Below, one piece after another: positions 3,073-16,076 of a DNA stretch of 64,000 nucleotides. The notes under the pieces are model-generated. The model had not been told where the DNA came from. It searched no databases and was given only the letters and a program-made list of their open reading frames with translations. Source of the DNA: Methylotenera sp. (GTDB lineage Bacteria > Pseudomonadota > Gammaproteobacteria > Burkholderiales > Methylophilaceae); contig NZ_JAQSCU010000008.1 of the NCBI RefSeq assembly GCF_029945535.1, forward strand, positions 62,001 through 126,000, given 5' to 3'. Positions within the stretch are counted from its first letter, which is position 1. Every line of letters begins with the position of its first letter. The position numbers were made by a program, and so were the translations under genes.

Positions 3073-3477
3073 CTAAGCCACTTCTTTCAAATAATGCCGC
3101 CATCCGCCTAGATGTGAAATATCAACAGCGTTTAACGTTGCATAGTGCTCACACATAAATCCATTTACCGTGCGGCCATCCGCTAATGTTAATGTACCGA
3201 AACCTAGCGGGGCAGGCACACCAGATACAAAGGTGCCATAATTTTCAATTGGCAATTGCCATACTTCTAGCGCTATTGCAGCGCCGCCGTCGACAACGCG
3301 TATCAGACCTGGGCGTGCGGGTGTGAATCCATTTAATTGATATAACTTGTAGGCTGGTGCAGTGGTCGTTTCTTCGAGGAAGGTACCGCCCAAGCTTGTT
3401 AGTTGCCCATTGAGCGGTAAGCCTGTCATATGCGCGCCACAGACTGCCACTTGGATAAATTTTACATTGTTGGTCAT
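3073..3477 (-). CDS. Stand-alone C-terminal domain of allophanate hydrolase
   Basis: The 134 residues match the C-terminal domain of AtzF/DUR1-type allophanate hydrolases (the AtzF_C, gamma-glutamylcyclotransferase-like fold): VAVCGAHMTGLPLNGQL at the start, the central PARPGLIRV and ALEVWQLP segments, and the terminal GFGTLTLADGRTVNGFMCE and GGWRHY motifs. In full-length enzymes this domain acts on the N-carboxycarbamate made by the amidase domain. Here it is a separate gene 34 bp after the amidase gene, with its own ATG and a weak GAG Shine-Dalgarno. It is the last gene of the guanidine operon. It may assemble with the amidase as a two-subunit enzyme. Confidence 0.85.
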   Translation of the reverse strand: MTNNVKFIQVAVCGAHMTGLPLNGQLTSLGGTFLEETTTAPAYKLYQLNGFTPARPGLIRVVDGGAAIALEVWQLPIENYGTFVSGVPAPLGFGTLTLADGRTVNGFMCEHYATLNAVDISHLGGWRHYLKEVA

Positions 3478-3511
3478 AGGTGCTCGTTTCTATTCTAGTG
3501 ATTAATTGGTA

Positions 3512-4885
3512 TTACTTAACAAACGGCAAGCCAGTTGCACCCAAAGTTTTTGCTGAGTGTTTCTGTACTTTGGCGGCTAAAGCCAACAACTGCATATCTT
3601 TAAACGCGGGGGCACAGATAGTCACGCCAAAAGGCATGCCATCACTTTGAAAACCTGTAGGCACAGCCGTTGCCGACAAATCTAGCAGGTTCATAAAATT
3701 GGTGTAGTAACCCAAATTAGAGTTACATCTTATTGGGTCAGCGTTCACTTCATCAATGGTATATATCGTGCCGGCAGTTGGTGTCACCATGACATCAATA
3801 TCGCTCCAAACCGCTTCCGCTTTGCGTTGCAAGGCTTTAAGTCTGTATTGTGAAAGGTAAGTATCTGCTGCACTAAACTTAGTGGCACCTCCTATGATTT
3901 GTTTGGTGACTGGAAATATAGCATCGGGTTTCGCTTCAAAAAATTCACGAATAGCAGCATAACGCTCAGCCACCCAAGGGCCTTCATAAAGCAAGCGTGC
4001 CGTCTCTAAGAATGGCTCAAAATCGATCTCGACAGCTTTTCCGCCAAGTGCTTTAAGTTGCTCAATCGCTTGCTTAAAGAGCTCAGGTGTTTCAGTGTTA
4101 TCAAAAAATGCGAGCTGATCTTGCTTTGGCACACCAAAAGTAAATCCTTTTTCTGCAATCGTAAGCACTTCAGCAACAGCTTTACGCGAATAAGCATCTT
4201 CTTCATCAAAGTCCTGAGCGCTTTCAAGCACTTGAGCGGCATCTTCAGCGGTAAGTGCAAAGATTGATACGCAATCAAGTGTTCGACAGGCTGGAACAAC
4301 TCCGCTGGTGCTCAACAAACCACAACTAGGTTTATGCCCAACCAAATTATTAAACGAGGCTGGTACACGGCCAGAACCCGCCGTATCTGTACCTAAACTA
4401 AAACTTGCCATGCCAAGTGCTACTGAAACCGCAGACCCAGCGCTTGAGCCACCTGAAATATAGTCCGGATTAAAGCTATTTTGACAGGCGCCATAAGGTG
4501 AGCGTGTGCCGACTAAGCCCGTGGCAAACTGATCTAAGTTAGTTTTGCCGATTGGAATCGCACCCGCATCAATCAGCTTTTGTACAACAGTGGCGCTCAC
4601 CATTGGAATATAGGCGTACTCTGGACAAGCTGCAGTAGTGGGAATGCCAGCCAAATCGATATTGTCTTTAATTGCAAATGGCACGCCGTACAAAGGTAAT
4701 TCAGCAATGCTTTTTCCTTCCAAACGTTTAGCGTAACTCAGCATTTCATCAAGCGTTAAGCGCCTGATCCAAATATTACGACTATCTTCATTACCAATTT
4801 CTGTATCGAGTTGTTTTACTAAATCTGTTGGTGTTAGCGTATCTGAAAGATACAAGTTTCGTAAATGTGAGATTTGTAAGTTCAT
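3512..4885 (-). CDS. atzF: Allophanate hydrolase, amidase subunit (lacks the C-terminal domain)
   Basis: An amidase-signature enzyme that should hydrolyse allophanate, the product of carboxyguanidine deimination, to release ammonia. Numbered from the ATG, the catalytic triad Lys73 (AIKDNID), cis-Ser147 (GGSSAGS) and nucleophile Ser171 (GTDTAGSGR) is intact. It ends at ~457 residues, where AtzF enzymes of ~600 residues continue into the C-terminal domain; that domain is the next gene. An upstream in-frame TTG at 4906 would add seven residues, but the ATG at 4885 aligns with family N termini and has an AGAGGA sequence upstream. The start lies just past the carboxylase stop codon, indicating translational coupling. 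Confidence 0.9.
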   Translation of the reverse strand: MNLQISHLRNLYLSDTLTPTDLVKQLDTEIGNEDSRNIWIRRLTLDEMLSYAKRLEGKSIAELPLYGVPFAIKDNIDLAGIPTTAACPEYAYIPMVSATVVQKLIDAGAIPIGKTNLDQFATGLVGTRSPYGACQNSFNPDYISGGSSAGSAVSVALGMASFSLGTDTAGSGRVPASFNNLVGHKPSCGLLSTSGVVPACRTLDCVSIFALTAEDAAQVLESAQDFDEEDAYSRKAVAEVLTIAEKGFTFGVPKQDQLAFFDNTETPELFKQAIEQLKALGGKAVEIDFEPFLETARLLYEGPWVAERYAAIREFFEAKPDAIFPVTKQIIGGATKFSAADTYLSQYRLKALQRKAEAVWSDIDVMVTPTAGTIYTIDEVNADPIRCNSNLGYYTNFMNLLDLSATAVPTGFQSDGMPFGVTICAPAFKDMQLLALAAKVQKHSAKTLGATGLPFVK

Positions 4886-4892
4886 TCTATTT

Positions 4893-7800
4893 TCATTCCT
4901 CTTCAATCACGATTAGATTTTGACCGGCAGAAACTGACATACCTTCAGTGCATAAAACTTTAGCAACCTTGCCTGCAACAGTTGCCGTGACAGCGATTTC
5001 CATCTTCATAGACTCCACAATCGCTACTTCATCGCCCTCTTGTACCAAATCACCTTCTTTCAGTTTAATCTGCCACAAGTTGCCTGCTACATGCGAGGCT
5101 ATAGCGCGACTACCTGCCGGAATTTCCAATACATCTAATGCGCTTGCAGACTCCGTTTCATTGCTGTAATTGGCCTGCCCACTAGCAATCCATCGCTCAC
5201 GCTCTGCATCAAAAGCGTTTTGCTGCTTGGCTTTAAATGCATTAATAGTTTCAGCTTCATTACTTAAAAACTGGTTATAGTCTTTGAGACGGAACGTTTG
5301 CTCTTCAACTTTCAGTTTGAATTTGCCATGTAGAAAATCCTCGCGCATTTGCAAAAGCTCATCGGCTTGTACTGGATAAAAACGAATTTGATCAAAGAAA
5401 CGTAATAGCCACGGTTTACCATCTACAAAGTCTTTGGTCTGGTTCCATCTGTTCCACATTTGTATGGTTCGACCCACAAACTGGTAACCACCTGGGCCCT
5501 CCATGCCGTATACACACATATAAGCACCACCAATACCCACCGCATTTTCAGGCGTCCAAGTACGTGCTGGGTTATATTTTGTGGTCACCAAACGGTGACG
5601 TGGATCCACTGGTGTTGCAACTGGCGCACCGAGATAAACATCACCTAGACCTAACGTTAAGTAGCTGGCATTAAAGACAATGTCTTTCACTTGTTGAATA
5701 GAATCTAAGCCATTAATGCGGCGAATAAACTCAATATTGCTAGCATGTCCGTCGACCATTTCGCACCAAGGGGCGTCTTTGCGCACCGATTGCATATACT
5801 TCTCAATCGCTAATTGCGTGGCGACATCATCCCAAGAGAGAGGTAAATGCACGATGCGTGTGGGCACTTCCATCTCATCAACACTAGGCAATTCAGATTC
5901 GCCTTTTTGCAGAATCTGAATAAGCTGCTTGACGGGTAATACTAAACTTTCAAAATGTACTTGCAGCGAGCGAATACCCGGAGTGAGATCGATAATGCCT
6001 TTGATTTTCTGTGCTTCCAGCCATTGCATGAGTGCATGCACGCGGAATCTTAAATTTAAATCCAGCACTAGCTCGCCGTATTCAATCAACAGATATTTAT
6101 CGCCTGATTGCCTATACACGACTTTAATTTGATCGGTTGTTTCGGCAATTTCAGCCAGAATCGGGCTATGTTGGGTTGTTGGGTTGGCGACCAACTTTGC
6201 GGGCTCTCCAGCAAGGTTCGTAATTCCTGTATTTGAAATGACAGCATTTTGCGCTAACTCATAGCATGCTGCATCCTCTTGTGTCACTTTGATAAAGCGT
6301 ACTTTATCGCCAGCTTTAAGCTGCCCCATTTTCCATAGCTCAGCTTGGATGATGGTTGCAGGACAAACAAAGCCACCCAAACTCGGGCCATCTGGTCCTA
6401 AAATCACGGGCATATCGCCAGTGAAATCCACCGCACCAATAGCATAAGCATTGTCGTGGATATTAGATGGATGCAAACCAGCTTCGCCACCATCTTTACG
6501 TGCCCATTGTGGCTTGGGACCGATTAGGCGGATACCTGTTGTATTGGAGTTGTAATGCACTTCCCAATCGGTCGAGAAGAACATGCTGATGTCATCATCA
6601 GTGAAGAAATCAGGGGCACCGTGCGGACCATACAGCACACCGATTTCCCAATAATTACTGTAACTTGGTTGCAATGTTTGGGGTAAAACTTTCGCAATAT
6701 ATTCAGTTGCCAACGGCGGTATGTGCAGCACATCCCCAACACGCAAGGTTCTGCCGCCATGCCCTCCGAATTGACCTAACGTAAAGGTAGATTTACTACC
6801 CAAATAATCAGGCACATCAAAGCCACCTTGAACAGCCAAATAGGTGCGGCAACCTGCATCAAGCACTTTACCTAACTTTAAAGTGCTCCCTGCTTTAATG
6901 AGGTGCGATTGCCACATCAAAATGGTTTCACCATCCAAAGTCGCATCAATGGGCGCACCAGTAATGGCAATCACAGCATCGGTATTAAATTTAAGTTTTG
7001 GGCCAATCAATGTCACTTCTAACGCAGCAACTCCTTCGGCGTTGCTTACTAACTTATTCGCAAACCTAAAAGCTAGATGATCCATAGGCCCAGAAGGCGG
7101 CACACCAACTGCCCAGTAGCCAGTTCGGCCTGGGTAATCCTGAATGGTCGTCATCACACCACCATCTTGCACGTCTATGGTATGTGGCTTGTATGTAAAG
7201 CTATTCAAATAACGGGTGATTTGTTTGCCTGCGGGGAAAACACTATCCATCAAAACTTGGCGCAAATACTCCAAATTAGTTTCGATGCCGTATATAGAGG
7301 TTTCAGCTAAAGCAGTACGCATTTTTTCCACAGCACTATCACGGTCTGAAGCGTGGACTAAGACTTTGGCGATCAGCGGGTCATAGAATGGTGAGACATC
7401 ACTACCAGTTTCCACCCAAGTATCATTACGTGCTGCCGATGAAAACTTAACTTCCGTCAACACACCACTTGAAGGCTCAAAGTTTTTATTGGGGTCTTCA
7501 GCATATAAACGCACTTGAATAGCGTGCCAAGAGGGGTTGTGCGAATAAGTATCTAGTGCGTTAGTTTCACCTGCAGCGATACGTATCATCCACTCAACTA
7601 AATCTACGCCAGTGACCAACTCAGTGACACCATGCTCTACTTGCAGACGTGTGTTCACTTCTAAAAAGTAGAACTGCCCTGAGTCGTTATCGTAAACAAA
7701 TTCAACAGTGCCTGCTGAACGATAGCTTAAAGCGCTCCCTAATTTAACAGCTGTGGCAGATAATGCTTGTCTAACATCCTCTGAAATGTTTGGCGCGGGT

Positions 7801-8522
7801 GTTTCTTCAATCACTTTTTGATTACGGCGCTGTACCGAGCAATCACGCTCACCAAGCGCAATCACCTTGCCTAGGCCATTACCAAAAATCTGCACTTCGA
7901 TATGGCGTGCTGCCTGCACATACTTTTCTAAATAAATGCCAGTACTTTTAAAGTTTGCACGTGATAATCGTTGGACGGATTCAAAAGCCGCATTAAGCTC
8001 ATCTTTACTCCAAATAAGCTGCATGCCAATACCGCCACCGCCAGCAGTACTTTTAAGCATAACTGGGTAACCGATTTTTTCAGCGTTAATATGTGCGTCT
8101 TCTACACTAGCTAATAAACCTGTGCCCGGTAATAAAGGTACGCCATTCTTTTCGGCTAATTCACGTGCAGTATGCTTCAAGCCAAAGTCGCGCATTTGCT
8201 TAGGCGTTGGGCCAATAAAGACGATGCCTTTCGCTTCGCATTTCTCAGCAAAGTCAGCATTTTCAGAAAGAAATCCATAACCGGGGTGGATTGCTTCCGC
8301 GCCAGTTTCTATGGCAACTTGGAGAATTTTGTCAGCATTCAGGTAGCTTTCAGCGGCTGGTGCTGGGCCAATACAAATGGCTTCATCGGCATCCAACACA
8401 TGGCGAGCACCTGAGTCTGGTTGCGAATACACCGCGACTGATTGAACGCCCATTTTCTTGAGTGTGCGAATCACACGGCAAGCAATCTCTCCGCGATTGG
8501 CAATTAGGACTTTTTTAAACAT
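4893..8522 (-). CDS. Biotin-dependent guanidine (urea-type) carboxylase
   Basis: A 1209-residue single-chain carboxylase. Order: biotin carboxylase with ATP-grasp (1-~450; [25 protein letters not shown]), carboxyltransferase with AHS2 and AHS1 parts (~455-1030; [25 protein letters not shown]), a linker, and a C-terminal biotinyl domain with VESMKMEI, biotin acceptor Lys1173. The length matches urea carboxylases without the fused allophanate hydrolase. Homologues beside DUF1989 gene pairs and guanidine-I riboswitches carboxylate guanidine to carboxyguanidine with ATP and bicarbonate, and that context is exactly present here. Substrate preference for guanidine over urea is therefore inferred from neighbours, not proven by a residue I can assign. 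Confidence 0.92.
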
Positions 8523-8607: not shown

Positions 8608-9255
8608 CTAATTCCAAACCAACAATTGAATGGGTGTTGGGTTGTAGGCATTGCATGGGTTATTCAATTGTGGGCAATTTGAGATAAGTACTAACACGTC
8701 CATCTCAGCACGCATTTCTACATATTTACCCGGCGCTGAAATGCCATCGGCAAAACTTAAACCACCATCAGACGTGACAGGCACATTCATGAAAAAGTTG
8801 ATGTTAGCTGTTATGTCGCGTTTAGTGATGTTGCGCTCAATCACACAAGCCGAATGGGTAATAGCATGCATAAAACTATCGCGACAACTGTGCATAGGGC
8901 GTTTTGATAGTGCATAGCGCGTTGTATTGCTTTCCGCCGAGCAAGCGCCGCCTATGGTGTCGTGTCGACCACATGTATCTGCTGTAATCGTCAGCATTGG
9001 GTTGCCTTCGCTGGAATACAACACCGAGCCTGTGGTAAGGTAAATCTGGCCTTGGCGTTGAATGGTATCTACCGCGCTGTAACGCTCGGTCGCATCATCT
9101 GCATTGTAAAACAACGTATCAACCGCTTGATTACCTTCCAAATCTAGAATGCGGAAGGTTTGACCTTTTTTGACGAGACCAGTCCATGGGTCACCAGCGT
9201 TGCACTTCTCATTCAATACTGCATCTTGAGTGCGTAATTTGCTTTCAGTTAACAT
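8608..9255 (-). CDS. Carboxyguanidine deiminase subunit (DUF1989, urea-carboxylase-associated protein)
   Basis: This 215-residue DUF1989 protein is one of the two paired proteins formerly called urea-carboxylase-associated and now known as the carboxyguanidine deiminase CgdAB, which removes one ammonia from carboxyguanidine to give allophanate. Visible family features are [31 protein letters not shown] (with conserved His and Cys likely to be metal ligands) and the distal [21 protein letters not shown]. It has an AGGA Shine-Dalgarno before the ATG. It lies 9 bp after its partner and 85 bp before the carboxylase. I cannot say with certainty which subunit is A and which is B. Confidence 0.88.
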
Positions 9256-9264
9256 ATCTAAATC

Positions 9265-9993
9265 CTAATTAGCGTAAAAGCGTTCAGTGTTGATAAAGCC
9301 GCGCTGATTCTGCTCGCAAGCGTTACGGCAAACGTCATCCTCTGCTGCAGTGCCAGCATGCCAAGCGCTTAATAACACATCCGATGGTTTGTAAGCGATT
9401 GCAGTATCTAAAGGATGTGGCGCAGTTGATAGCACCACTAATACGTTCATATCAAAGCGCAAATCGACTACATCACCCACTTTGCTATTGCCTGCATTAA
9501 AAACTAAACCACCAGTATCGTTCGCACGTACTTTGCTGAATAAATTCACATTGGCAACCAAATCACGTTGACCTAAACCATGCTTGGCAAGCTCGATTAA
9601 CAAGCCATCTTTTGCACTACGGTACATGTTATTGCGATGTGTTTGATAATTGGCAACGCCATATTTCTGTTCGATGAGTTTTGCATCAGAGATGCCGCAC
9701 ATGGTGTCATGCCAGCCTACCGTGTCATGAATAAATGAGCACATCACTCGCCCCATGTCGGAATAACACACATTCCCCGTAGTTAAAAAAGCCGTATGTT
9801 GTGCTTTCAAACTATCGGGCATGTTGTAGCGTTCTAGTTTTTCTTCGAAGTTATATAGCAAGAGAGAGACATTCGCCCCACCTTGCAAGTCAGTAAAACG
9901 CAATGCGGAACCTCTGCGCATAAGCCCAGACCAGTGATTACCTCCTGGTACAGTTTCTTCCCACAGTATTTCTTTTGGATTAAATGTGCTCAT
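9265..9993 (-). CDS. Carboxyguanidine deiminase subunit (DUF1989, second paralogue)
   Basis: A 242-residue DUF1989 protein, paralogous to its downstream neighbour: it shares the GGNHWSGLMRRGSALRFTDL start, the YSDMGRVMCSFIHDTVGWHDTMCG core (conserved His and Cys), and the VGDVVDLRFDMNVLVVLSTAPHPLD end. The two proteins form the heteromeric carboxyguanidine deiminase in characterised systems. The close spacing (9 bp to the next gene, about 40 bp after the glutamine synthetase-like gene) supports one transcript. The C-terminal tail contains two cysteines (CRNACEQNQRG). Confidence 0.88.
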   Translation of the reverse strand: MSTFNPKEILWEETVPGGNHWSGLMRRGSALRFTDLQGGANVSLLLYNFEEKLERYNMPDSLKAQHTAFLTTGNVCYSDMGRVMCSFIHDTVGWHDTMCGISDAKLIEQKYGVANYQTHRNNMYRSAKDGLLIELAKHGLGQRDLVANVNLFSKVRANDTGGLVFNAGNSKVGDVVDLRFDMNVLVVLSTAPHPLDTAIAYKPSDVLLSAWHAGTAAEDDVCRNACEQNQRGFINTERFYAN

Positions 9994-10033: not shown

Positions 10034-11395
10034 TTAGAACATATAGCTGTAGCGCTCGATTTCCCATTGGCTGACAGTCAAATGGTAGGTTTCCCACTCT
10101 TCAGTTTTATATTTTATGAATTCATCACGCAGCTCTTTACCTAATGTTTTTTCAACTAATGGGTCTGCTGCAAACGCTGCGACTGCCTCTATTAGCGTTT
10201 GTGGTAAAAAGCCAATTCCACGCGCTTGGCGTTGCTCTTCGTTCATGTCATAGAGGTTATCTTCATTCGGTTTACCTGGATCTAATCCTTCACGAATGCC
10301 CTCTAAACCAGCGGCCAAAGCTAATGTTGCAGCAAGATATGGGTTTACCGCGCCATCAGCATTGCGCGATTCACAACGCCCGCCGCCCATAGGTACGCGT
10401 ACAGAGTTAGTGCGGTTATTGGAGCCGTATGAGTTAAATACTGGTGCCCAGCTAAAGTAGCTCATTGCACCACGGCGAACCAATCGTTTATAACTGTTAA
10501 CCGTAGGTGCAAATGCAGCACATAGGGCGGGGCCGTGCTTCAAAATACCAGCGATGAACTGATAACCTAAAGTCGTTAAACCCAGTCCGCGCGGGTCATC
10601 TTTAGGGTCGCAAGCAAATAGGTTTTTACCTGTTGTTAAATCGTACAGTGACATATTAAAATGTGCGCCCGTGCCCGTTTTATCGGCAAATGGCTTAGGC
10701 ATCATGGTGGCAACAAGCCCATCTTCTTTGGCATAGTGCTTTGCCATATAACGGAAGAAAATCAGGCGGTCACACTGAGTGAGTGCATCGCTATAGTTAA
10801 AATCAAACTCGAATTGGCTGTTGGCATCTTCATGGTCAAATGAATATAAATCCCAACCCAAACCATTGATTGCCGTGGCCATTTTATCTAGCCAGGCAAA
10901 GTTATCCATAAAGCCGCGTACGTCATAGCAAGCCTTCTCTAGCTTATCGTCTGGATTAGGCACGCTTAAGCTACCATCAGCATTTTGTTTCAACAAATAA
11001 ATTTCGCACTCAATACCAAGGTTCATGCCGAAACCCATTTCAGCAGCTTGTGCTAAAACATTTTTAAGCGCTACGCGAGTATTCAATGCATAAGGCTTAC
11101 CTTGAAAGTGATTATCCGCTGGCATCCATGCAACTTTAGGCTCCCAAGGCAGTTGAATGATATGGTCTAGATCTGGTACGGAATTCAATTCATCATCACT
11201 CGGCGCCTGACCCAAGCCATCCAGCGCGTAGCCTGTATATCGCTCTGACCCAGCCGCCATTTGTGGCAAATGATCTATAGGCACTACTTTAGCTTTAGGA
11301 ATACCGTGAATATCGACATAAGCACCGATGCAGTATTTAACACCTTGGTCTTGTAGTTTTTGCTGTATTGCTGAAACTTCTTTTGCTGATTTCAT
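10034..11395 (-). CDS. Type III glutamine synthetase-like enzyme (GlnT/GmaS family)
   Basis: A 453-residue glutamine synthetase-fold protein with the beta-grasp N terminus and a catalytic domain: [23 protein letters not shown], the [10 protein letters not shown] region and the [23 protein letters not shown] and [19 protein letters not shown] motifs that bind ATP and glutamate. The family includes GlnT glutamine synthetases and gamma-glutamylmethylamide synthetases of methylotrophs, so the amine could be ammonia or methylamine. Inside the guanidine operon, the simplest reading is capture of the ammonia released from guanidine, which is inference. It starts 12 bp after the creatininase-family gene. 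Confidence 0.85.
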
Positions 11396-11407: not shown

Positions 11408-12172
11408 CTAATGCGTATGATTGGAAAAATAAGAATTTGCTAAAGGGGGTGTTTCTTTTAAACCTTGTTGAATTAATCTACTCAGGTCTTCTACCATCCA
11501 TTGAAACCATTCCTGACCTTTTTCAGCAGTCGAAATACTGGGCATGCCAGTGACACCATTAGTACTAGTGCGGTTGACGGGGTGAGAGAAAACTAAGCCT
11601 TCTGTACGATCCGGGTCATCAGCAAGATTTAATAACTCAGTACGTACCATATGAGGCGCTGTGGCAAGCATCAGCGAAGTTTCTGCATCATTCGCATGCC
11701 AATCGTCACCATCTGCATGATGAAACTGTCTCACGCGCTCGCTAATATGGGCGGAATTAATCACTGTCACCATCATGTCGTCGTGTTCTGCACGTAACAT
11801 TTCTAAAGCACAGCGTAACGGTGCGGCATTGGTAACATGGGTGTTCACAATAAATAAGCGACGAATTCCACTGTGATAAGCCCAGTCTCCAATATCTTTC
11901 ATCATGTTTATCAAGGTGATTGGCTGAATTGCCAAAGTACCCGGCCAGCGTTGGCTATGCCCGATTGAGCAACCATAGGGCATGGTTGGCAACATTGGCA
12001 CATTGGTCAATGTTGATACGGCACTACATAAAACATCCGCTAAAACATAATCCATGCCACAGCCCATGTGCGGCCCATGTTGCTCGGTTGCGCCTATCGG
12101 CAAAATGGCGGCTTGATTCGCTTCTGCAATTTTTTCGGGCAATTCTGCCCATGTGAGTTCAGACCAAAACAT
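11408..12172 (-). CDS. Creatininase-family amidohydrolase
   Basis: The 254-residue protein has the creatininase signature: LPIGATEQHGPHMGCGMDYVLAD (metal ligands Glu, His, Asp), GIRRLFIVNTHVTNAAPL, and the DDWHANDAETSLMLA segment with further metal-binding residues. Family members hydrolyse small cyclic amides such as creatinine, or act on other amide bonds. Its place between the ABC ATPase and the glutamine synthetase-like gene of a guanidine operon is unusual and suggests that the importer may also bring in a guanidino compound that needs ring opening or amide cleavage. That substrate is inferred, not seen. Confidence 0.83.
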   Translation of the reverse strand: MFWSELTWAELPEKIAEANQAAILPIGATEQHGPHMGCGMDYVLADVLCSAVSTLTNVPMLPTMPYGCSIGHSQRWPGTLAIQPITLINMMKDIGDWAYHSGIRRLFIVNTHVTNAAPLRCALEMLRAEHDDMMVTVINSAHISERVRQFHHADGDDWHANDAETSLMLATAPHMVRTELLNLADDPDRTEGLVFSHPVNRTSTNGVTGMPSISTAEKGQEWFQWMVEDLSRLIQQGLKETPPLANSYFSNHTH

Positions 12173-12180
12173 GCTATCGA

Positions 12181-13095
12181 TTACTCCACATTATCTTCAA
12201 TGTTTACAAAACGAATCATGCGCTGAGTAATGGCTTCATCTTCAGCGTCCTTTTCAGCCAGCGTTTTGGGTGGATGGATAAGTGCTTCCAGCCGCGCCTT
12301 GGTAGCTAAAAATTCTGGACTTGTAAAATCTCTAACACTTCGTGGTCTTGGCACAGGTACTTCAATCAACTCTTGCACTTCGCCTGGGTGTGCTTTTAGA
12401 ACCAGAATTCTATCCGCCAGAAAAATAGCTTCATCCAAATCATGTGTAATAAACAAAATAGTCACATCGACATTGCGCCAAATTTCAAGTAAATGTGTTT
12501 GCATCTTGGCGCGAGATTGCGCATCCAATGCACCAAAAGGCTCATCCATTAACAAAATACGTGGTTGATTGACTAGGGCACGCGCGATGGCAACGCGCTG
12601 CTTCATACCGCCCGAAAGTTCATGCGGATAGGCATTTGCGAACTTCTCTAGGCCAACTAATTCCAGCCACAAATCCGCTTCTTTTCCAGCTTCATCGGCG
12701 CTGGCATTGTTCATTTCCAAGCCGAACATGACGTTTTTTCTAACACTTAACCATGGAAATAAAGTGTAGCCTTGGAATACCATTCCCCGGTCACGTCCTG
12801 GCCCTGTCACTGGTTTTCCATCAAGTAAAACATCACCAGAAGTGTGTGGTTCCAAACCGGCCAAAATGCGAATTAACGTTGATTTACCACAACCTGATGG
12901 GCCAATCACGCAAACAAATTCACGTCTATGCGTTTTAAAATTAATGTTTTTAAGTGCGGTGACCTCACCTTTTGCAGTCTTGTACACTTTACCTAACTGC
13001 TTCACCTCTAAAATCACTTCGCGCTGTTTGAGTCTATCAAAGCGATTTTTAACGGCTTCAGATTGATCTAAATAACTTGGAAGATTAGTGTTCAT
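12181..13095 (-). CDS. ABC transporter ATP-binding protein (nitrate/sulfonate/taurine type)
   Basis: A 304-residue ATPase. Residues ~30-260 hold the nucleotide-binding domain with Walker [11 protein letters not shown]-loop [11 protein letters not shown], signature LSGGMKQR, Walker [13 protein letters not shown] and switch [14 protein letters not shown]. The subfamily is that of SsuB/TauB/NrtD importers; this type accompanies guanidine-I riboswitches and urea-type carboxylases elsewhere. It has an extended N terminus (~28 residues) and a C-terminal extension after residue 260. It lies 14 bp after the permease gene, and presumably energises uptake of guanidine. Confidence 0.92.
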
Positions 13096-13109: not shown

Positions 13110-14075
13110 TTACTCTTTATTCGCAGGCCTGTCCCAAGGGAACAAGTGCTTACCTAGCCAAGCTAGAATTAAATCTCCACCTAAGCCAATCACGCCGATA
13201 ATGATGATGGCAGCATAAACGTTATCAAAATGCTGATACCGTGCCTGCTGTGTGATAAACCATGTGATGCCTGATGATGTACCTATCAACTCTGCCACTA
13301 TCAGATATGTCCAGGCCCAGCCTAATAGGATGCGTTGATCACGATATAGCTCTGGCAAAATACCAGGGATAATCACGTGCATCATGAGTTTAAATTTACT
13401 AGTGCCTAGCGTTAGCGCGGCTTCTAGCAGTGAGTAATCCAGCTTACGTGTGGTATTTGCGATAATCAGAATTTGCTGAAACAAAGTACCAATCACGATA
13501 ATGGCTATTTTCGGACCGTCATATATCCCCAAAATAGCGACCGCTAACGCACCGAATGCAGGTGCAGGCAAATACCTGAAAAACTCTATGAATGGCTCAT
13601 TTAGCCTAGAAACTGCACTGTATGTTCCACATAAAATTCCGATGGGAACACCAATCAATGATGAGATAAAGAACCCCCAAAATATAATCTGAATGCTATG
13701 CCAAAGACTTTCATGTAGCCATTTACCATCACGCTGCTCAGGCGCTGTTGTAAAGCCTGTATACAATGCTTTTGCAACTTCATGTGGTGCAGGTAAGTAG
13801 ATGGGGTTGGCAGGCTTGCCTTCAGGAATCACCTTGCCAGCAGCCTTCATGTTGGCGGACTCTTCCTTAAATGATGCCTTATCCACCAGCATGTCTACCT
13901 GAAAGTAATCGACATCTCCTGGCTTACTCACTAACACCATCGGATGCCATACAAACGGCACATAACTCACTACACACCAAATTAGCAAAGGCAACAGAAA
14001 TGAGCCTAAACCCAATAACTTTTGCCTACGCGGCGACAGCTCCCTACGCACAGCAAACCAAGACTCTAGACTCAT
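13110..14075 (-). CDS. ABC transporter permease (SsuC/TauC type)
   Basis: A 321-residue permease with about six hydrophobic segments. Between the first helix (~20-40) and the core there is an insertion of about 75 residues, probably periplasmic, longer than in most SsuC proteins but usual for the urea-carboxylase-linked subgroup. The cytoplasmic coupling (EAA) loop [25 protein letters not shown] is clear. It pairs with the adjacent ATPase and substrate-binding protein. Confidence 0.9.
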
Positions 14076-14134: not shown

Positions 14135-15136
14135 CTATTTAGTTAGCAATGATGGGTCTATCGCTTTTTGTATATCCATAGGCTTTTTGTATACGCCGTA
14201 TTTCACATTGAAGTCATCTGAGATTTTTGAAGAGCCGTATAGAGATTTAAAGCCAGGTGCTTTAACAAATACTTTTCTACCTTCTTCTAGGCTGAGCAAC
14301 TTAGTGCCTTTCAATAATGGTAAATAAGCTTCTGGTTTAATACCAACGCGAGCTGCCATTATTTTTACTGCATCTGGTTGAGTTTTAGGGTCATTGATGT
14401 ACATCACCACTTTGTCCCAAACTTTAATCACTTTTTTCCAGTCAGCTTTGCGGCTAGACAAGCTCGTTGGGCTTACTGTTAATACGTCATAGATAAGGCC
14501 GGGTTCATCAGCAGAAGTGTAGATTGGTTTAGCGCCAGGAACGCGACTCATAGCTTCACCAGAATTTGGTTGCCATGCGCCAATAGCAGACAAATCACCT
14601 GAAGCTAATGCTTGTGGGGTTTCGTTGGTTTTGGTGTTGATGATTGTGACATCAGACTCTTTCATGCCAATTTTTTCTAAACCATTCAGCAGTAAAAGAT
14701 GTTCAACAAAGCCTGTTTCAAGACCGATTTTTTTGCCTTTTAAATCCTTTAGACTTTTAATGCCCTGCTTAGCCACAATCATATCGTTGCCGTTAGAGTA
14801 ATCAGTCAAAAGTATCATGACATTTTTAGCGCCACCTGAACCAGTAACAAGCGCATCGCCATTGGTGACAGTAACACCATCAATTTTCCCTGCGGCAAAT
14901 GCATCCATAGAAGCAACGTAATCAAACCACTCAAATTGGACATCTACACCAGCCTCTTTAAACCAGCCCTTATCAATGGCAACTTGCCATGCGACCCAAC
15001 CTGGCCAATCGCTGTAACCGACCTTTAAAGGCGCAGCAGCGTTAGATAGACTTGTGAATAGTAAAGATGCGGTAAATGCAGTGGCAGTTAATACAGTACG
15101 TGCAGAAAAACGTTTGATAAAACTTGAGTTTTGCAT
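14135..15136 (-). CDS. ABC transporter periplasmic substrate-binding protein
   Basis: A 333-residue NMT1/TauA-like binding protein. It has a Sec signal peptide (hydrophobic core ~15-30, probable cleavage after SNA at ~33) followed by [25 protein letters not shown], the typical lobe-1 start, then [18 protein letters not shown] and a second lobe. Shine-Dalgarno AGGAG (15143-15147) lies six bases before the ATG. It is the first gene after the guanidine-I riboswitch, so the ligand is most likely guanidine or a related guanidino compound. Confidence 0.92.
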
Positions 15137-15187
15137 GGCTGGCTCCTAGGTTGGTAAAAAGTCGAGAAGGCGGCATTTATATAAACG

Positions 15188-15290
15188 CTTCCTCCCGGGC
15201 TTTTATCCCTCCGTGTAGCCACATGTTGATTGGCCGACAACTCTCGGACCAGACACTCTTATAAAATAAAAGCCGGAACCCTAGTCATCT
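15188..15290 (-). ncRNA. Guanidine-I (ykkC) riboswitch
   Basis: Read on the minus strand, the leader shows the conserved blocks of the ykkC motif in order: CTAGGGTTCCGGCT (15284-15271), CTGGTCCGAGAG (15252-15241), and ACACGGAGGGATAAAAGCCC (15217-15198) followed by GGGAGG. These match the guanidine-binding aptamer class almost base for base. It lies ~50 bases upstream of the substrate-binding protein start codon. The expression platform is not obvious: I see no strong terminator, only a weak AT-rich inverted repeat around 15173-15189, so control could be by that helix or by access to the ribosome site. Confidence 0.95.
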
Positions 15291-15345
15291 TTTTGAAACT
15301 TCAGCGGTTAGTAAACACTCACCGCTTTCTCGCTGATTACTTATA

Positions 15346-15361
15346 AGCAATCAGCATGCCA
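15346..15361 (-). promoter_or_regulatory. Sigma54 (-24/-12) promoter of the guanidine operon
   Basis: The minus strand reads TGGCATGCTGATTGCT, matching TGGCAC-N5-TTGCW, with GG and GC separated by exactly 10 bases. It would start transcription near 15335, about 45 bases upstream of the riboswitch aptamer. It overlaps an imperfect inverted repeat (15332-15355). Confidence 0.7.
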
Positions 15362-15446
15362 GCTATTGATAAAAATTACTTTCCTTCTAAATCATATAGT
15401 TAATAACTCATCACGAAATTGACGATCTTGTAATTCATAGCTATCC

Positions 15447-15461
15447 GCACCAACTTAGTGC
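15447..15461. promoter_or_regulatory. NtrC-type enhancer site
   Basis: GCACCAACTTAGTGC fits the NtrC core GCAC-N7-GTGC. It is centred about 119 bp upstream of the start predicted from the sigma54 element, a usual distance for NtrC enhancers. Only one site is clear. Confidence 0.6.
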
Positions 15462-15528
15462 TGCGTAATGAGAATTGCACTGTTTAAATAGCGCCGAAAT
15501 GTTATGAAGAAATAATTTCCATTAATTA

Positions 15529-15567
15529 TATATAGGCTCCTATACAATTTGCATAGGAGCCTATATA
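15529..15567. promoter_or_regulatory. Large inverted repeat overlapping the marR promoter, probable MarR operator
   Basis: TATATAGGCTCCTAT (15529-15543) and ATAGGAGCCTATATA (15553-15567) are perfect 15-bp arms with a 9-bp spacer. A TATAAT -10 box (15564-15569) begins inside the right arm, 30 bp before the marR start codon, so a bound regulator would block transcription. Autorepression by the adjacent MarR protein is inferred. Confidence 0.7.
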
Positions 15568-15599
15568 ATATATCCACCATTAAGCAGGATAGTCAATAA

Positions 15600-16076
15600 A
15601 TGTCAGAGTCATCAGAAAATTGGCAGCCAAAAACGATGCCCTCAATACTCATCTCTCATGCGGCAAGAGCGCTTGCGCGTAGAGCCGATACAAAGTTACG
15701 AGATATTGGCATCAGCACTAGTCAATTCCCTGTGCTTGTAGCTTTAAAGGATGGTGCACGGCTTACACAAAAAGAGTTGGCACTATTAGCCAACGTCGAA
15801 CAGCCCAGCATGGCCCAGCTTCTAACTCGCATGGAGCGCGACGGTCTTATCCGCAGGGAAGCTGATCCGAACGATGGAAGAAGCAGTCTTATTTCACTGA
15901 CTAATACCGCCACTAGCCTGTTCTCACCTGTTCGAGCCATCCTTACTCAAGGTAATCAAGAAGCCTTGGCAGGTTTTAACGACAGCGAGATCGAACAGTT
16001 GGTCGCTTTGCTTCACCGTGTGATTGCTAATGTGGGCGATGGCAAATGTCTATTAGCGACTGTATCCCCCAAATAA
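15600..16076 (+). CDS. MarR-family transcriptional regulator
   Basis: A 158-residue MarR protein: dimerisation helices at both ends, winged helix at ~40-105 with LTQKELALLANVEQPSMAQLLTRMERDGLI as the helix-turn-helix and DPNDGRSS as the wing. An AGGA Shine-Dalgarno lies ~10 bases before the ATG. It is divergent from the guanidine operon and 44 bp ahead of an MFS transporter gene that it probably controls through the palindrome at 15529-15567. Confidence 0.9.
   Translation: MSESSENWQPKTMPSILISHAARALARRADTKLRDIGISTSQFPVLVALKDGARLTQKELALLANVEQPSMAQLLTRMERDGLIRREADPNDGRSSLISLTNTATSLFSPVRAILTQGNQEALAGFNDSEIEQLVALLHRVIANVGDGKCLLATVSPK

Follow-up and report, generated by a model that had tools for sequence, protein, structure and literature searches.

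Architecture of the locus

The window, that is, the whole stretch of 64,000 nucleotides analysed here, belongs to a genome of 3.0 Mb whose transporter gene has its closest named matches in Methylotenera bins (97 and 96%). On the minus strand, an NtrC-like palindrome, a σ54 element, a Guanidine-I aptamer and a terminator precede, in this order, an operon of the guanidine carboxylase type. Its genes are the following:

14135..15136, minus strand, ABC transporter substrate-binding protein, NMT1-like, first gene of the operon (top profile TIGR03427, below its cut-off, 153.8 vs 333.9)
13110..14075, minus strand, ABC transporter permease (profile matches all below cut-offs)
12181..13095, minus strand, ABC transporter ATPase (top profile matches below cut-offs)
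11408..12172, minus strand, creatininase-family protein (PF02633, 230 bits)
10034..11395, minus strand, type III glutamine synthetase-like protein (TIGR03105, 654.9 bits vs a cut-off of 469.6)
9265..9993, minus strand, CgdB-like protein, UAAP1, DUF1989 (TIGR03425, 343 bits; PF09347)
8608..9255, minus strand, CgdA-like protein, UAAP2, DUF1989 (TIGR03424, 344 bits; PF09347)
4893..8522, minus strand, urea/guanidine carboxylase (TIGR02712, 1929 bits)
3512..4906, minus strand, allophanate hydrolase, amidase part (TIGR02713, 629 bits)
3073..3477, minus strand, allophanate hydrolase C-terminal domain as a separate ORF (PF21986, 170 bits)

The Cgd names are given by analogy. A ribosome-binding sequence, AGGAG, precedes the substrate-binding protein gene at 15147-15143. 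The carboxylase, two DUF1989 subunits and allophanate hydrolase stand together, as is required of a guanidine carboxylase operon, and we assign the gene set to that pathway. A preference for guanidine over urea is not established by this assignment: TIGR02712 is named for urea carboxylase, and none of the models used here separates the two activities. The splitting of allophanate hydrolase into amidase and C-terminal ORFs (3073-4906) is found in the same order in one other locus (L105).

The elements upstream of the first gene are listed in the direction of transcription of the operon:

15474..15480, minus strand, upstream NtrC half-site GTGCAAT, 30 bp above the main site
15461-15447, minus strand, NtrC enhancer-like palindrome GCAC-N7-GTGC, GCACTAAGTTGGTGC, a conserved block in the genus
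15390..15402, minus strand, IHF-like site TAACTATATGATT, with one mismatch to the well-known IHF consensus YAANNNNTTGATW
15361-15346, minus strand, near-perfect σ54 -24/-12 element TGGCATGCTGATTGCT, reading towards the operon
15303..15326, minus strand, conserved 5' leader RNA hairpin AGCGGU...ACCGCU, an inverted repeat between the predicted start and the aptamer
15295-15190, minus strand, Guanidine-I riboswitch aptamer RF00442 (88 bits vs a cut-off of 63)
15197-15156, minus strand, intrinsic-terminator-like hairpin with UUUUU, whose 5' arm takes the last bases of the aptamer, CGGGAG

A predicted NtrC/σ54 promoter precedes the aptamer

In the σ54 element, the GG of the -24 box (15360-15359) and the GC of the -12 box (15348-15347) are separated by exactly 10 nt. 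With this spacing, its consensus context and its conservation, the element meets the sequence requirements of a σ54 promoter. The centre of the NtrC palindrome lies about 119 bp above the predicted start near 15335. The original prediction, made from the sequence alone, had described a GG-N10-GC element just upstream of a guanidine riboswitch and a GCAC-N7-GTGC site about 119 bp up. All three elements held, and the anatomy is extended here by the IHF-like site and the second NtrC half-site.

The σ54 and NtrC consensus motifs used in our searches are those generally known, and the σ54 score, out of 20, uses weights of our own. Within the window, the σ54 pattern with at most one mismatch occurs 10 times vs 9.44 expected, the element at the locus being one of two without a mismatch, and the exact NtrC palindrome occurs once vs 1.41 expected. 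Neither motif alone is significant by count in the window. Since such single-motif counts in 64 kb are compatible with chance, the reality of the promoter rests on the joint order, spacing and conservation of its parts.

Across the whole genome, the strict σ54 pattern occurs 37 times vs 4 for a reversed control. The strict NtrC palindrome has 10 sites vs 3 for its reversed control; one pair of them, separated by 30 bp, counts as a single place, leaving nine. A σ54 score of at least 19 is found within 320 bp at 3 of the nine: glnA (TIGR00653, 630 bits), an ammonium-transporter-family gene (TIGR00836, 309.7 bits, under the cut-off of 343.3) and the guanidine operon. Relaxing the score to at least 17 adds a fourth place (L159). 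The ammonium-transporter gene is likewise preceded by two NtrC palindromes 30 bp apart. The genome carries one rpoN match (438 bits), one protein over the NtrC equivalog cut-off (701 bits) and at least 6 further NtrC-family proteins below it. The locus thus has what is expected of an NtrC-activated σ54 promoter, namely an upstream enhancer site shared with other promoters and the genes for both regulators in the same genome.

Several other sequences lie close to these elements. A 24-bp near-palindrome (15332-15355) overlaps the -12 element; a like sequence occurs in the closest kin (L021) and is not genus-wide. A σ70-like pair (10/12) lies further up on the minus strand at 15596-15567. A 19-nt near-perfect inverted repeat (15529-15567), perhaps a MarR operator, stands before a divergent marR-MFS gene pair; it overlaps a plus-strand σ70-like pair (15541-15569) and touches the end of the minus-strand pair.

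The σ54 element is conserved upstream of most sampled Guanidine-I aptamers

Aptamers were gathered by a regular expression, which replaced a first, too loose one, from samples of the family, class and phylum and from named loci; all are proteobacterial. The 171 matches were deduplicated to 149 (same aptamer and 60 nt upstream), reduced to 147 by leaving out L109 and L269, and to 144 by excluding aptamers with less than 150 nt upstream. Outside this set remain L270 and L271, without a match to the expression, and matches below the cut-off in G507, G522 and G715. Kinship inflates all conservation counts given below.

A σ54 score of at least 17 out of 20 was found upstream of 125 of the 144 aptamers; dinucleotide shuffles gave 9.95 on average, and the opposite strand 13. 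Some of these elements are out of place; restricted to positions -115 to -15, the count is 122/144 vs 3.95 in shuffles. The exact NtrC palindrome is present in 43 leaders (1.6 in shuffles) and missing in 101; with one mismatch allowed, it is found in 104/144 vs 26.4. By kinship, the σ54 element precedes 16/16 aptamers of the genus itself, 15/16 in the rest of the family, 5/6 in the order, 73/77 in the rest of the class (31/33 families with at least one), 10/19 in other classes of the phylum and 6/10 in named loci. It occurs in 51 of 63 genera. Of the 19 aptamers without it, 9 belong to other classes of the phylum (19 sampled), 4 to named loci (L097, L107, L108 and L110; 10 sampled) and 6 to the remaining groups. 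Lack of conservation of both elements in relatives would have refuted the original prediction, and it survived this comparison. The pairing of aptamer and σ54 element is thus the norm for proteobacterial aptamers in this sample and is not unique to this Methylotenera genome.

The element is found with different first genes: transporter binding protein (85/96), permease (13/14), DUF1989 protein (7/9), a weakly HRI1-like protein (6/7), arginase-family protein (4/5) and desaturase-like protein (4/4). It therefore tracks the aptamer and not solely the transporter. Two of these gene contexts are worth recording in their own right. In L002, L226 and two more cases, Guanidine-I with a σ54 element (4/4) stands ahead of a fatty-acid-desaturase-like gene. 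In L003 and six more, the gene after the aptamer encodes a protein of about 240 residues, whose only match is a weak one to HRI1, below the Pfam threshold.

Alignment of 16 genus leaders showed these main common blocks: the GTGC half-site (GTGC in 15/16), the NtrC palindrome, the IHF-like site, the σ54 element and the hairpin before the aptamer. The leader alignment called for by the original prediction thus places the NtrC block across the genus. An IHF-like site with at most one mismatch is present in 13/16 genus leaders vs 3.1 in shuffles, 40-42 bp above the σ54 element, and in 8/15 leaders from the rest of the family vs 2.4. The distances between NtrC and σ54 sites cluster near 68, 79, 88 and 98. 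The best period is 11.0 (p 0.0014 in a jitter test that leaves out the own family) and 10 for exact sites, uncorrected for kinship. Such clustering could fit an activator that needs to face the polymerase.

The RNA step resembles transcription antitermination

The aptamer's covariance-model match exceeds the gathering score of the family, is full length (positions 1-107 of 107) and is the only RF00442 match in the genome. The hairpin that follows folds with a z of about -2 against shuffles. Its 5' arm uses CGGGAG of the aptamer, so the two structures are mutually exclusive, as in an expression platform, by folding only. A terminator-like structure follows 16/16 genus aptamers: 11 overlap the aptamer, and in 5 the scored hairpin lies further on, although the printed folds of these 5 leaders show an overlapping hairpin too. 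Over the whole set, terminator-like structures were scored after 66/144 aptamers vs 32 in mononucleotide shuffles; 44 of the 66 run into the end of the aptamer. Among the 16 leaders from the rest of the family, 5 showed no terminator-like structure, four of these belonging to a single genus (g15). From these uneven counts, the RNA step is not uniform, and other lineages may use another platform. The original prediction had left the RNA step as read-through or translation. This is corrected here: with the terminator overlapping the aptamer end, the step is probably transcription antitermination and not translation, judged by folding and with guanidine binding inferred.

The leader hairpin has a five-pair consensus stem, paired in 23 to 28 of 28 family leaders per position, with some changes on both sides among these leaders. 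CGAGAA precedes it; its role is unassigned. An Rfam scan of 15100-15620 returned RF00442; its eight other matches all fell far short of their cut-offs, giving no support for a further riboswitch in the leader hairpin.

A family of presumed ammonia oxidisers has the aptamer without the σ54 element in the leaders examined

One family of the same order serves as a natural control. We take its members as ammonia oxidisers because AMO was found in 67 of 125 genomes. The aptamer is present in 101/125 of these genomes and rpoN in 116/125, whereas no NtrC was detected in the 125 genomes at E<=1e-150. Since the first-look candidates of a genome were scored only in part in this search, a divergent NtrC is not excluded. 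We examined 31 loci (L223 and L272-L301, with 33 leaders), a subset of the places found. A sense-strand σ54 element was seen in 0/33 of these leaders; 2/33 have a σ54 element in antisense together with a one-mismatch NtrC-like palindrome. The first genes, judged by eye, are mostly APC-type-permease-like, and APC-type permeases as first genes have been described for comammox organisms (PMC11410670). The aptamer can therefore exist without the promoter, and the promoter is absent where NtrC seems absent. Loss of NtrC alone would explain the missing promoter. A second conceivable reason is that ammonia-oxidising cells use guanidine for energy.

Most relatives without the aptamer carry a palindrome and a NikR-like gene

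Among 80 named loci with the transporter gene, 62 gave no aptamer. Rfam scans of 23 of these 62 found no Guanidine-I; the other 39 were covered by the Guanidine-I regular expression only. A σ54 element lies above the transporter gene in 60/62 (3 on the other strand), and an NtrC-like site with at most one mismatch in 43/62, for which no shuffle control was run. In two aptamer-less loci, a Guanidine-II match was observed (L039, 12869-12917; L089, 12101-12150); the transporter leaders there have the NikR-like palindrome described next.

Most aptamer-less loci carry a palindrome close to GTATTAC-N14-GTAATAC shortly past the -12 element, by the predicted start. It was counted only in the leader next to the transporter gene, over 700 nt and with up to 2 of 12 mismatches. 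By this count, it is present in 56 of 65 aptamer-less leaders, 9 having neither element, and in 0 of 15 leaders with an aptamer. Over 600 nt, where the aptamer of L107 is cut off, the palindrome is found in 0/14 aptamer leaders vs 56/66 others (Fisher 1.3e-9, kinship uncorrected), with a background of 33/1600 in mononucleotide shuffles, and a NikR-like gene in 0/14 vs 48/66 loci; several of the loci without the gene are short contigs. One locus, L075, has both aptamer and NikR-like gene; here the transporter leader holds the palindrome, and the aptamer lies several kilobases away. A quick tree built from the transporter protein requires 6 changes of the aptamer/palindrome state, or 14 if leaders with neither element count as a separate state; for the aptamer group, no fewer than 5 changes are forced by well-supported branches.

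The NikR-like regulator is represented by L049 11193-11663 and 47 homologs in other named loci, all but L075 aptamer-less. It is homologous to 2bj1 over 126 of 157 residues (E 4e-32), covering the ribbon-helix-helix and nickel-binding domains that define a NikR homolog. It scores over the cut-off of two NCBIfam NikR models and under that of TIGR02793. The nickel ligands of NikR, in E. coli numbering, are H76, H87, H89 and C95. In columns set by alignment to 2bj1, the H87 position is retained in 48/48 and the H89 position in 46/48, but H76 is a histidine in 2/48 and C95 a cysteine in 0/48, so the requirement for all four ligands is not met. With two of the four ligands gone, the usual nickel sensing is unlikely in this protein. 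In some of these loci, the available DNA shows no DUF1989 genes following the one for the glutamine synthetase-like protein, and the ligand therefore need not be guanidine. The NikR operator reads GTATGA-N16-TCATAC, and the palindrome of the relatives likewise has 16 bp between its hexamers. Unlike NikR, the protein of the relatives lacks two of four ligands in nearly all 48 cases and is linked to a nitrogen-compound transporter operon. That the palindrome is the operator of the NikR-like protein is inferred from co-occurrence and NikR-like spacing, without binding data.

The aptamer-less relatives keep the promoter while the palindrome seems to take the place of the aptamer, so the promoter looks constant and the substrate sensor exchangeable. 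In a bolder reading, one NtrC/σ54 starvation promoter would form a fixed chassis on which evolution repeatedly swaps the sensor, a guanidine-binding RNA against a NikR-derived repressor that lost nickel binding and responds to guanidine or to some other compound carried by the same transporter. We find the balance tipping slightly against this reading at present. Were it true, it would represent repeated replacement between RNA and protein in one gate, and an unrecognised small-molecule-sensing branch of NikR, now annotated as nickel-responsive.

Proposed mechanism and alternative explanations

The elements, their order, spacing and conservation, the genes of the regulators and the overlap of terminator and aptamer are established. 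From these, we consider it highly probable that the operon is gated twice in series, by an NtrC/σ54 promoter and by a Guanidine-I aptamer. Binding, start site, response directions and the AND product are inferred, without expression or binding data. Under nitrogen shortage, phosphorylated NtrC would occupy the palindrome at 15461-15447, with help from DNA bent by IHF and from the weaker half-site located 30 bp further up. It would contact the σ54 polymerase waiting at 15361-15346, and transcription would fire from about 15335. The nascent leader would fold the aptamer. With guanidine bound, the aptamer would retain CGGGAG and the polymerase would read on; without guanidine, CGGGAG would join the terminator hairpin ending in UUUUU, and transcription would stop before the transporter gene. 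The output would be nitrogen limitation AND guanidine. In relatives, the promoter stays, and the second gate would pass to the NikR-like repressor, with its palindrome near the predicted start. The AND gate of the original prediction is thus supported and probably right, its function being inferred. In the proteome of Vreelandella boliviensis, such an operon is reported to be high on guanidine and for the most part not detected on ammonium (PMC12508155); this fits the proposal but does not separate the two gates.

The alternative that survives best is that the σ54 control belongs to the transporter gene, the aptamer merely lying between them in an unselected pairing. In its favour, aptamer-less relatives of the transporter gene have the σ54 element as often (60/62). 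Against it, the element also stands ahead of aptamers with other first genes, and we regard the alternative as improbable in full. In part it is nevertheless true, in that the promoter is independent of the aptamer; this would be the reason why the gate could be exchanged.

A second alternative accepts the σ54 element but assigns it to another enhancer-binding protein, with GCAC-N7-GTGC incidental. The genome encodes at least 6 more NtrC-family proteins, and the exact palindrome is absent in 101/144 leaders. However, the palindrome is common to the glnA and ammonium-transporter promoters and forms a conserved block in the genus, and the family without a detected NtrC equivalog is also without the σ54 element. 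We judge this alternative very improbable.

Less probable still is a third, in which a σ70 promoter drives the operon mainly, the riboswitch alone regulates and the σ54 element is minor or a relic. It can point to the same-strand σ70-like pair at 15596-15567 and to the ammonia-oxidising family, which has the aptamer without the σ54 element. A relic, however, would hardly be kept at a fixed position in 122/144 leaders, and the σ70-like pair is flanked by the inverted repeat on one side and by the start of marR, the divergent gene, on the other, a context that is not conserved since marR is found in only 1/80 named loci (L031). This pair could still supply basal read-through.

Two further candidates were rejected. 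Chance accounts for either motif alone in 64 kb, not for the conserved set. A promoter of the divergent marR is ruled out, as the σ54 element points towards the operon, both elements hold their spacing to the aptamer in the genus, and marR stands beside a single named locus.

Discussion

Serial double gating of the operon, our preferred reading, combines parts known from other systems. The Guanidine-I riboswitch (ykkC class I, RF00442) is known before guanidine carboxylase operons, with the same aptamer, ON-type architecture and carboxylase/allophanate hydrolase genes as here. NtrC is not mentioned in the main texts of PMC12508155, PMC12186494 and PMC11410670, nor RpoN in the two checked for it. 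The AND logic has precedent in Klebsiella nasF, which follows the same serial scheme of NtrC/σ54 initiation and substrate-controlled leader antitermination (PMC5424462, PMC3369931). There, a nitrate-sensing ANTAR protein, NasR, reads the leader, whereas in Methylotenera the leader RNA itself would sense the substrate. Predictions of σ54 regulons include 102 genes of COG3665, which we take to be the DUF1989 family, 59% of them named urea carboxylase, as well as ABC-type nitrate transporter COGs (PMC12316311). That paper differs in never mentioning guanidine and in mentioning riboswitch once, in a cited title; no coupling is described in the sections bearing on it.

Our searches of the open-licence PMC literature found neither the coupling nor the exchange described; most subscription papers are outside this scope. 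A search for ykkC with NtrC returned nothing, and guanidine, riboswitch and NtrC together returned only c-di-GMP papers. The NikR-containing PMC2667541 is unrelated to the exchange.

If the proposal is true, guanidine alone would be insufficient for expression of the operon, and the promoter would confine it to nitrogen hunger. The comparison also gives a rule, that the aptamer and the NtrC/σ54 promoter occur together and that the pairing is lost or replaced in defined lineages. The exchange of an RNA sensor and a repressor on a constant promoter would offer a natural experiment on the replacement of riboswitches by proteins and the reverse, and it draws attention to a set of NikR annotations in which the assignment to nickel is probably mistaken.
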